Shown: one piece after another, positions 24,908-53,545 of the stretch
Position numbering within the stretch: position 1 is the stretch's first letter
How the letters are laid out: each line of letters begins with the position of its first letter
NCBI GenBank assembly: GCA_947572415.1
Contig: CANPBT010000001.1
Location: 1-64,000, forward strand
Length of the DNA: 64,000 bases
DNA from: an uncultured Clostridia bacterium
GTDB taxonomy: Bacteria; Bacillota; Clostridia; Christensenellales; Borkfalkiaceae
Direction of reading: 5' to 3'
Translations under genes and position numbers: made by a program
Notes under the pieces: generated by a model
What the model saw: the letters and a program-made list of their open reading frames with translations, nothing else
What the model was told of the DNA's origin: nothing
The model's database searches: none

Positions 24908-25651
24908 TCAATTGTTTTCGGCGGGTTGGTTTTGTGCCGCGTCGGGTTCGGCTGTTGGCTTTTGCTTGTTGTTTTTATCCATAATAGCGAAAAGCTTATC
25001 AAGCGCTTTCGTCTTTGCGAGCGCGTACATCGCGCCTGCCGCGATAACGCAGTCCGCCGGCAGATACACGCACTGGTAAATAAACGAGTAGACGAACATA
25101 TTCGGCGTGGGCAAATCCACCCATATAGAGTCCTGCGCGAAGTAGATAAAGCCGGATATAAGGTGGAATGTAAATCTTGCAACGTAAACGAGCGTTGTGC
25201 CCAAAACAACTTTCGCCGTAACTGGCAGCTTGCCGAACTTCGGCGCGAAGCCCATAAGCCCTATGCTCGCGAACGCGAGTACGTAGTCTAAAACGAAAGT
25301 CATCGGCGTAAGTATATACGGGTTCGTGATAAAGTCGAAAAGTCCGACGACGATACCCGCCAGAGTGCCTTTAATCGGCCCGAACTTATACGCGTAGATG
25401 AGCGGGGGGACCATTCTCGCAAGCGTAATCGAGCCGCCGTACTGCACGGGCGAAACCTTGATAAAGGACAGTGCGACCGAAGCGGCGATACATATGCCCG
25501 CGAATGCGATTTCGTTAGTGGAAAACTTTTTGCCGAATAAACACATTACGGCGAGGATTACGATTAAAAGCGCAATGGCTCCGATAGAAATCCACGTTAC
25601 GATGTCCGTCGTCTTTTCGCTGACGGCGAGAAGCTGGGAAGAAAGAAACAT
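24908..25651 (-). CDS. thiT: ThiT-like thiamine ECF-transporter S component
   Basis: 247 aa, six transmembrane helices. 'VQYGGSITLARMVPPLIYAYKFGPIKGTLAGIVVGLFDF' and 'FVLDYVLAFASIGLMGF' match the thiamine-binding ThiT family. It has extra N-terminal (residues 1-40) and Asp/Gln-rich C-terminal (~225-247) parts beyond the compact family length. A TPP riboswitch, terminator and AAAGGAG site precede it, which strongly supports thiamine uptake. It needs an EcfA/A'/T module encoded elsewhere. Confidence 0.92.
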   Translation of the reverse strand: MFLSSQLLAVSEKTTDIVTWISIGAIALLIVILAVMCLFGKKFSTNEIAFAGICIAASVALSFIKVSPVQYGGSITLARMVPPLIYAYKFGPIKGTLAGIVVGLFDFITNPYILTPMTFVLDYVLAFASIGLMGFAPKFGKLPVTAKVVLGTTLVYVARFTFHLISGFIYFAQDSIWVDLPTPNMFVYSFIYQCVYLPADCVIAAGAMYALAKTKALDKLFAIMDKNNKQKPTAEPDAAQNQPAENN

Positions 25652-25671
25652 AAAAACTCCTTTTACCGTCG

Positions 25672-25704
25672 TAAAAATATAGCGCTCCCCTATAAGGGGA
25701 ACGC
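25672..25704 (-). terminator. Riboswitch-controlled terminator before thiT
   Basis: On this strand GCGTTCCCC ttata GGGGAGCGC (one G-U pair) is followed by TATATTTTT. It is placed between the TPP aptamer and the thiT start, so it should be the off-state structure. Confidence 0.75.
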
Positions 25705-25719
25705 AAAATCATCTCTTTG

Positions 25720-25928
25720 TACTATCGCTCAACCATTACGTTGCCGATTCAAAGGGTATAATCTCAGCCTGCAGATATACTTCGCATCTCTTCGTTGCAC
25801 TTGCGTTTTTATTCAGTCGTGTACATCTGTGTACACTCCTTGCATAAAAGCCGCGTGCGCCTTGACCTGCTCGTATCTTTACGGGCTGTCAAAGTAAGTT
25901 GCGTGGGTATATGAGGCACCCCCGACGG
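25720..25928 (-). ncRNA. TPP riboswitch (Thi box) with an oversized P3 arm
   Basis: Read on the - strand: GGGGGTGCC (25923-25915), then GGCTGAGATTATACCC with CTTTGAA (ends ~25749), then CAAC-GTAATG-GTTG-AGCG (P4/P5). These are the conserved TPP aptamer segments. P3 closes with GCCT/AGGC, but its loop is about 140 nt and contains a dispersed repeat (25774-25880). Thiamine pyrophosphate should reduce thiT expression through the terminator at 25672-25704. Confidence 0.88.
25774..25880 (+). repeat. Dispersed ~105-bp element, copy A (inside TPP riboswitch P3)
   Basis: Shares long matched blocks with copy B at 36169-36274: ATACTTCGCAT, AGTCGTGTAC, TGTACACTCCTTGC, CTGCTCGTATCT. It has a central GTGTACA/TGTACAC hairpin and loosely inverted ends. 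Confidence 0.75.
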
Positions 25929-25964
25929 TATATTAAATTTGTTCGCTTTTTCAAGCGTAATTAA

Positions 25965-25993
25965 ATTATAATTAAAAACACGTTCAAAGTCAA
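25965..25993 (-). promoter_or_regulatory. thiT promoter
   Basis: TTGACT (25993-25988), 17 bases, TATAAT (25970-25965). It lies back to back with the yfbR promoter and leads into the TPP riboswitch. Confidence 0.75.
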
Positions 25994-35533: not shown

Positions 35534-36160
35534 ATGGAAAAGAGAGCTTACGAAATTTTTTCGCACATGAACCGCGAGATAAGCGTCAGGATAATCCCTG
35601 GACACTTTGCAACAAAGCACTCGCATATCAGCCATTGCCTGGATATGACGGACGTAAAATCCAGACTCGACAGCGCGAAGGCTGCGGCAAAAATTCTGTC
35701 CGACAGCTTCACCGGCGTGCCCGTCGACACCATTATCACGTTGGAGCGTATGAAAATGGTCGGCGCGTTTATGGCGAATTATCTGTCGCACTCGGGGGTA
35801 AACGCCCGCCAGAACATTGCGGTAATCACGCCCGAGCTCGTCGAGGACAAGCTGATTTTAAGGGATAACTTCCTGCCGTACGTTATGAACTGCCACGTGT
35901 TGCTGCTTACGGCCTCGGCGACAACCGGTCAAACTGTGAACAGCGGCGTAGAGGGCATAAGGTACTACGGCGGCACGCCCGTCGGCGCGGCGACCGTGTT
36001 CGGCGGCGAATTCGCGTGCGACGTGCCCGTCGTCAAGCTTTTCGGTGCAAAAGACCTTAAAGGCTACGTGTCTTATCCCCCGCAGGATTGCCCTATGTGC
36101 AAAAAGGGGTTGAAGGTGGACGCGGTAGTCAACTCGTACGGGTATTCCAAAATAATATAA
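35534..36160 (+). CDS. PyrE-like phosphoribosyltransferase fold protein, degenerate PRPP loop
   Basis: 208 aa; AAGGAG before the ATG. The layout fits orotate phosphoribosyltransferase-like proteins ('DTIITLERMKMVGAFMANYL', 'CHVLLLTASATTGQTVNSGV', and C-terminal 'DCPMCKKGLKVDAVVNSYG'). In active enzymes the PRPP loop has two acidic residues before the TTG; here the segment reads TASATTGQT with none. It may have lost catalysis or use another ligand. It is alone between repeats and rplS. Confidence 0.7.
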   Translation: MEKRAYEIFSHMNREISVRIIPGHFATKHSHISHCLDMTDVKSRLDSAKAAAKILSDSFTGVPVDTIITLERMKMVGAFMANYLSHSGVNARQNIAVITPELVEDKLILRDNFLPYVMNCHVLLLTASATTGQTVNSGVEGIRYYGGTPVGAATVFGGEFACDVPVVKLFGAKDLKGYVSYPPQDCPMCKKGLKVDAVVNSYGYSKII

Positions 36161-36168
36161 AACGCATA

Positions 36169-36274
36169 TATACTTCGCATAACTTTGTTGCGCTGCACTT
36201 TGTTTAGTCGTGTACGTCTTTGTACACTCCTTGCGCAAATGCTCGCGCGCTGCGTTCTGCTCGTATCTCTGCGT
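36169..36274 (+). repeat. Dispersed ~105-bp element, copy B
   Basis: Homologous to copy A at 25774-25880 (matching blocks ATACTTCGCAT, AGTCGTGTAC, TGTACACTCCTTGC, CTGCTCGTATCT). The central GTGTACG/TGTACAC hairpin is kept with substitutions. It lies just after the phosphoribosyltransferase-like gene. Confidence 0.75.
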
Positions 36275-36825: not shown

Positions 36826-36974
36826 GCGTTATAATAAGCTTCGCAACACTTCGTCAAGCATCGCCGTTTTTTCGGTTACATACTTCATGTATGCGCCCTT
36901 AAAACGGCTCGCTTTCCTTGTCTTTCTTGCTTCTTATAACGCAACACTTTTATAATTTACAAAGGATTTATGAT

Positions 36975-43726: not shown

Positions 43727-43785
43727 TACGCCGCAAAAAGTAAGCGAAACGGCTTTCGCGTTAAAACTTTTTAAGGCAAATAAAT

Positions 43786-43838
43786 ACCTCATTCGTCTTT
43801 GCCTTCACGGCAAAGCCACATACCCCCAATGGGAAGGC
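43786..43838 (+). repeat. MITE-like repeat copy between hslV and hslU
   Basis: ACCTCATTCGTC, then TTTGCC tcac GGCAAA, then a CCCCcaatGGGAAGGC end; a degenerate family member that lengthens the hslV-hslU gap to 243 bp. Confidence 0.6.
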
Positions 43839-53421: not shown

Positions 53422-53475
53422 ACTTTCCCCTTTCGGGGAAAGTGTCCGCGCCGTGCAGGCGCGGACGAATGAGGC
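53422..53475 (-). repeat. MITE-like repeat copy, reverse orientation
   Basis: Read on this strand it starts GCCTCATTCGTC, then GTCCGCGCC...GGCGCGGAC and ends CTTTCCCC/GGGGAAAG. It faces the copy at 53492. Confidence 0.65.
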
Positions 53476-53491
53476 TTTAATTTAATATTTT

Positions 53492-53545
53492 ACCTCATCA
53501 GTCTTTGCCTTAACGGCAAAGCCAGCTTCCCCGTTAGGGGAAGCC
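53492..53545 (+). repeat. MITE-like repeat copy, forward orientation
   Basis: ACCTCATCAGTC, TTTGCC ttaa GGCAAA, CTTCCCCgttaGGGGAAGCC. It ends where the truncated gene at 53556 begins. Confidence 0.65.

Follow-up and report, generated by a model that had tools for sequence, protein, structure and literature searches.

A variant TPP-type riboswitch upstream of thiT in gut Clostridia carries a dispersed palindromic repeat within its P3 arm

The window analysed here is a 64,000-nucleotide stretch of the 1.57-Mb genome of a gut Clostridia bacterium (G000); the thiT leader and the repeat copies described lie on its minus strand. The gene thiT (24908..25651) encodes a 247-residue thiamine transporter (Thia_YuaJ) whose identity is certain (Pfam PF09515, 98.6 bits, E 5.7e-28, cut-off 25.8), and the divergent neighbour of its leader encodes a YfbR-like 5'-nucleotidase. 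Read along the minus strand, the leader begins with a sigma-70-type promoter-like site, TTGACT-17-TATAAT (25965..25993; 11 of 12 matches in a consensus scan). There follow the P1-like aptamer 5' strand UACCGUCG (25923..25930, with an invariant CGUCG core), the TPP-type block GGGGGUGCC (25915-25923), the 149-nt P3 arm (25768..25916, inserted element included), CUGAGAUUAUACCC, the P5 hairpin, and an intrinsic-terminator-like hairpin (25682..25704; 10 pairs, 7 of them G-C) consisting of GCGUUCCCC-UUAUA-GGGGAGCGC and the tail UAUAUUUUU. The last elements before the thiT ATG are CGACGGUA (25664..25671), the complement of the aptamer 5' strand, and the Shine-Dalgarno sequence AAGGAG (25657..25662), which CGACGGUA abuts on the upstream side and which also precedes thiT in relatives. 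The genome encodes thiamine pyrophosphokinase as well, so that imported thiamine can become TPP.

The pyrimidine-binding half of the aptamer is canonical, with P2, P3 and the CUGAGA junction in place. The P2 5' strand GGGGUG (25917..25922) faces a 3' half (25725..25767, located by pattern match) that contains CUGAGA (25762-25767) and UACCC (25754-25758), with the P2 3' strand ACCC at 25754-25757; the interval from GGGUG to CUGAGA is 149 nt. The pyrophosphate half has been rebuilt: where canonical aptamers read GAA-CCU-GAU-[P5]-CGU-AGG, the variant reads GAA-UCG-G-[CAAC GUAAUG GUUG]-AG-CGA. P5 (CAAC/GUUG, 25740-25743 and 25730-25733) is present and covaries, its top pair being C-G in 50 leaders, G-C in 22 and A-U in one, but J4/5 and J5/4 differ from the canonical form. 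Two-sided changes are also found at the outer pair of P2, which covaries with the ACC[C/A] side (G-C in 69, U-A in four). P4 would be formed by UCG (25745-25747) and CGA (25725-25727), both of which are invariant, so that this helix lacks covariation support. The aptamer is a lineage-specific variant combining a canonical pyrimidine-binding half with a rebuilt P4/P5 half; of the 93 genus members, 74 have its 43-nt 3'-half pattern, each a single time, and the variant is nearly invariant across the genus.

The Rfam TPP model, RF00059, finds no match in the window at its gathering score (54.3 bits), nothing between 25650 and 26000 up to E = 10, and nothing genome-wide at E <= 0.001. Insert-free relatives with a short P3 fare little better, most scoring 24-37 bits and two reaching 43 and 48, all below the cut-off. 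The silence of Rfam is therefore no argument against an aptamer at this locus: much of the rejection is due to the divergent P4/P5 half, and the insert lowers the score further. A covariance model of the variant, built from insert-free relatives only (R2), recovers the aptamer of the window with 67.7 bits (E 2e-16), a score that rests on the 3' half because the alignment draws its 5' part from within the insert. The original prediction, a TPP riboswitch upstream of thiT with a dispersed repeat in P3, is borne out by what lies here. Its proposal to judge the aptamer by the Rfam model yields a rejection that extends to the short-P3 relatives, and its claim that all conserved aptamer blocks are present stands for GGGGGUGCC, CUGAGA and UACCC and fails for the P4/P5 half.

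Relatives were collected by ThiT protein search and by pattern search with the aptamer 3' half; the matches include contigs named Candidatus Coproplasma and Candidatus Scatosoma. One of 74 leaders is cut off by a contig end and 73 could be measured, each of them with a ThiT protein downstream by genomic position. When 396 genomes sampled across the order were searched, the leader turned up in three more, from two sister genera, and in no other family. P3 is 10-29 nt long in 58 of the 73 leaders and exceeds 60 nt in 13 (G000, G084, G076, G021, G024, G005, G009, G073, G091, G020, G019, G022 and G104, the last a remnant of 77 nt); two are intermediate (57 nt in G064, 45 nt in G063). The P3 of the window is thus five or more times as long as that of short-P3 genus members. 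The aptamer core is the same in relatives with and without the element, and across the insert-bearing leaders, G000 among them, the 3' half agrees with the genus pattern at every position, except in G104, which has one mismatch. The ThiT proteins themselves fall into two classes within the genus: in about a dozen species the protein is short and 65-93% identical, and in most others it is only 30-45% identical and has a longer N-terminal part, both behind the same riboswitch.

The inserted sequence is a 116-nt imperfect palindrome (25769..25884). Two further copies lie in the window: one directly after the stop codon of the open reading frame at 35534-36160 (36162..36274) and one between rplS and the open reading frame starting at 36918 (36828..36940). 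The first of these had been predicted at 36169-36274; the second had been missed. It overlaps the mechanical TTG start of the frame at 36918, whose true start may lie further in. The copies at 25.8 and 36.2 kb share ungapped blocks of 44 nt and 31 nt, each 84% alike. A covariance model (R1), trained on ten copies of which P3 arms, the window's among them, contributed eight, scores the three window copies at 115.2 bits (E 1.7e-26), 105 bits and 81.5 bits (E 6e-18), in the order given. In the whole of G000 it makes 18 matches: its three training copies from this genome (25769-25884, 36162-36274 and one on contig C5) at 105-115 bits, fourteen non-training copies scoring 52-101 bits, and a weak 30-bit fragment. 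Twelve other genomes of the genus and family have between 0 and 51 matches, G024 the most. The dispersed copies in G000 are mostly intergenic, several of them a few bases past a stop codon.

Many dispersed copies with a common fold place the element among MITE- and REP-like repeats. Membership in a known RNA family was considered and rejected, since no Rfam family matches the element near its cut-off, and a REP-type Y1 transposase (PF01797), considered as the mobiliser, was not found in the G000 genome. In a sister-genus genome (G341), adjacent tandem copies about 120-200 bases apart occur on four contigs (C12, C14, C15 and C16). The window also holds a second pair of short repeats (TACCTCATTCGTCTTTGCCTTCACGGCAAAGCC..., 43785-43826 and 53491-53532, 86% alike) with an inverted copy nearby at 53428-53483, possibly another dispersed family.

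How the element came to reside in P3 is recorded in its own phylogeny. A 66-row tree, in which dispersed elements of G000, G021 and G024 are also represented, unites the P3 copies of ten species in a single clade (99/93), separate from the dispersed copies of their own genomes, which means one main insertion, inherited and then repeatedly lost or trimmed. In nine aligned species the insert has an identical orientation and similar boundaries. Deletion has left recognizable remnants: in G104 the P3 stem persists together with the right arm of the element, GCGTAAGCGCGACAATGAGATGCGACGTATATTTGCGAG, and in G064 the P3 stem ACGTCTAC/GTAGACGT with a short remainder. The main P3 copy goes back to a single insertion in the ancestor of the clade; at least ten of the species sampled have inherited it, and two carry deletion remnants. 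The 235-nt P3 of G019 (L164) holds a second, partial element core in tandem (42 bits). An ancestral tandem dimer was considered for it and rejected: the two cores are nearly alike, and a recent local duplication is simpler.

The arm offers two ways of pairing its right end. Minimum-energy folds of ten P3 arms, computed separately, usually combine the P3 stem with a core hairpin and with a small hairpin at the element's left end, while the consensus fold of the P3-arm alignment contains the element's own left-right terminal pairing, with two-sided changes at 17 of 39 pairs. The two right-end pairings are mutually exclusive. In the remnants of G104 and G064, which lack the left end, only the P3 pairing is possible; this favours P3 pairing for the working aptamer, and we infer that it is the one used there. 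The element's terminal pairing, if it formed, would compete with it and may misfold the aptamer. When the entire leader is folded to minimum energy without ligand, the predicted structure lacks P2. The long P3 loop of the original prediction is long as claimed, but it is predicted to be built of a stem and two hairpins.

The predicted choice of a length-tolerant arm is supported, for the element lies in the arm whose length is known to vary in TPP riboswitches (PMC6414600). Tolerance or domestication had both been put forward as the fate of the repeat. Relatives with and without the element do exist, the core is unchanged between them, and the insert, where present, belongs to the repeat; the comparison speaks for tolerance and stops short of functional domestication. 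Domestication would mean that the element serves the riboswitch, anchoring or delaying its co-transcriptional folding or tuning its response to ligand, and is kept in at least ten species for that reason. Retention as a single lineage across ten species is what one would expect on this account, as are a right arm (CGCAAGCGCGACAAAGAGATGCGAAG) common to most copies and two-sided changes in the helices of the insert; an extended P3 does affect ligand discrimination in Klebsiella thiC (PMC12632268). Against this, close relatives have lost the insert wholly or in part with no change in the aptamer core, pairing covariation is to be expected of any palindromic family, and at least one dispersed copy also seems to have been kept across species (L077 of G000 groups with L334 of G104, 99/97). 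Domestication is accordingly rather improbable, although it is the strongest of the alternatives, and the insert is best regarded as a structurally accommodated passenger.

The downstream part of the leader suggests how expression might be controlled. Just ahead of the Shine-Dalgarno sequence lies CGRCGGUA, a complement of the aptamer 5' strand UACCGUCG. In 68 of the 73 leaders (the other five gave no match to the simple motif used), positions 1-8 of this pairing are paired in 66-68, and position 8 is U-A in 54, A-U in 13 and A-A in one. Over 12 positions there are 648 pairs, against 625 +/- 3 when shuffled, with none of 2000 shuffles as high. The covariation reflects few independent switches (three pairs on starred branches), and a tree-aware sign test is not significant. 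The G000 leader is predicted to close in this helix, between 25923..25930 and 25664-25671. A local P1 between UACCGUCG and CGAUAGUA, the latter just past P5, suits G000 by eye and was rejected: its outer part is not kept in relatives, whereas the Shine-Dalgarno-adjacent partner is. The terminator-like hairpin is statistically weak in itself (one found, against 0.4 in shuffles); a hairpin at the same position is also found in the leaders of relatives.

A mechanism consistent with these features can be outlined. The distal end of P3 would make no contact with the ligand, which would allow the arm to tolerate an insert, and the insert would fold as a domain of its own (P3 stem, small hairpin and element core hairpin), leaving the aptamer core intact. 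Ligand-stabilised folding of P2 would permit the downstream terminator to form; in transcripts that read through, UACCGUCG and CGRCGGUA would close a long-range, P1-like helix and hinder ribosome binding. The thiT leader is, on sequence evidence, most likely a TPP-type riboswitch that represses thiT when thiamine pyrophosphate is plentiful. The explanation as a whole (a TPP-type variant riboswitch, one ancestral P3 insertion, a tolerated passenger and an expression platform deduced from pairing) can be held with good confidence.

The rebuilt P4/P5 half raises the question of the ligand: thiamine or its monophosphate might be bound in place of TPP. The terminal phosphate is contacted directly, in canonical aptamers, by one C and one G of the P4/P5 arm, the other contacts being mediated by Mg (PMC6414600). 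If P4 is UCG/CGA, J5/4 has changed from CGU to AG and J4/5 from GAU to G, and this next to a canonical pyrimidine-binding half. The two phosphate-contacting bases are presumably those just after P5, in J5/4, and would then be altered in the variant. The near-invariance of the variant across the genus points the same way, as does the presence of canonical or near-canonical TPP aptamers (50-70 bits; L034-L040) in seven other genus members. Where canonical loci were inspected, such aptamers precede thiF/thiG-type genes: ThiF and ThiG are confirmed downstream at L034 (G078), and thiF/thiG-type open reading frames were read by eye at L035 (G032) and L037 (G018). (Two sub-threshold matches to Gut-1 RNA, 33 and 32 bits against a cut-off of 50, were seen in another family, ahead of a canonical TPP aptamer, at L026 462-539 and 734-811.) On the other side, the only gene seen with the variant is thiT, which is usually TPP-regulated, and thiamine pyrophosphokinase is at hand. 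The variant pattern is, moreover, absent from all seven members with canonical aptamers; with no genome found to have both forms, the variant looks like a replacement, not a second sensor. A change of ligand is on balance unlikely. The fuller proposition, that the variant senses thiamine or its monophosphate, controls thiT partly through the long-range Shine-Dalgarno helix and has in one clade adopted a mobile palindrome as a peripheral folding domain, is likewise unlikely. The best reading of the P3 repeat is an old insertion accommodated by a length-tolerant arm.

Independent insertion, with the P3 loop as a preferred target and each species acquiring its copy separately, finds its argument in the host tree. 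In a YfbR tree of 61 rows (a single gene of about 195 residues), all placeable element-bearing leaders fall in one 27-row clade (100/98), where they are scattered among short-P3 species, and the insert state changes at least 6 times; the same clade holds the G064 remnant as sister to the insert-bearing G020. The copy of G022, moreover, clusters with dispersed elements and caps a long P3 of a different kind. Yet the ten P3 copies form a clade apart from the copies of their own genomes, orientation is shared and boundaries are similar in the nine aligned species, and deletion remnants exist. As a general account, separate acquisition has little to recommend it: for the main group it is largely excluded, the copy of G022 may be a separate insertion, and that of G020 may be one too, less certainly, since it lies outside the ten-copy clade in the best tree but its grouping with the ten is not rejected (p-AU 0.34). 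That the element inactivated the riboswitch and left a decaying pseudo-riboswitch, as the silence of Rfam and the outsize P3 might suggest, is very improbable, for the 43-nt 3' half keeps the genus pattern as described above, and the 5' core, the terminator-like hairpin and the complement beside the Shine-Dalgarno sequence are retained as well.

The insert-free, insert-bearing and remnant states of these leaders document a mobile repeat entering a riboswitch and staying through many speciations. They also expose a blind spot: the standard Rfam model misses or under-scores these thiT riboswitches, for which the long P3 and the different phosphate-binding half are each partly responsible. The variant itself amounts to a compact natural experiment on the parts of the TPP aptamer needed for phosphate recognition. 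Keyword searches of the open-access literature found neither a P4/P5-variant TPP aptamer nor a case of a dispersed repeat lodged within an aptamer helix of a riboswitch.

Among known systems, the closest is the TPP riboswitch itself (THI element, RF00059), with which the thiT leader shares the P2/P3 half with GGGGUGC, CUGAGA and UACCC, a P5 hairpin with a UAAU loop, the position before a thiamine gene and a terminator-like hairpin downstream. It differs in its rebuilt P4/P5, in scoring below the gathering cut-off even in the insert-free relatives tested, in a P1 5' strand that pairs beside the Shine-Dalgarno sequence in place of a conserved local 3' strand, and, in the window, in a repeat-derived P3 of 149 nt. 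The element resembles REP/BIME and MITE-type repeats in its length (about 115 nt), its imperfect palindromic symmetry, its dispersal at copy numbers of 0-51 and the mostly intergenic location of the G000 copies, often a few bases past a stop codon; it differs from them in that no REP-type Y1 transposase (PF01797) was found in G000 and no Rfam family matches it. The pneumococcal BOX element of the trp leader (PMC3049150) is another palindromic repeat of dispersed occurrence that is transcribed together with a riboswitch leader, but it lies between two T-box riboswitches, whereas the thiT element lies inside an aptamer helix. The long-P3 TPP riboswitches of plants and of Klebsiella thiC (PMC6414600, PMC12632268) likewise extend the distal end of P3 and leave the binding core unchanged; what sets the thiT extension apart is that it belongs to an identifiable family of dispersed repeats and that relatives show the arm with the insert, with a remnant of it and without it.
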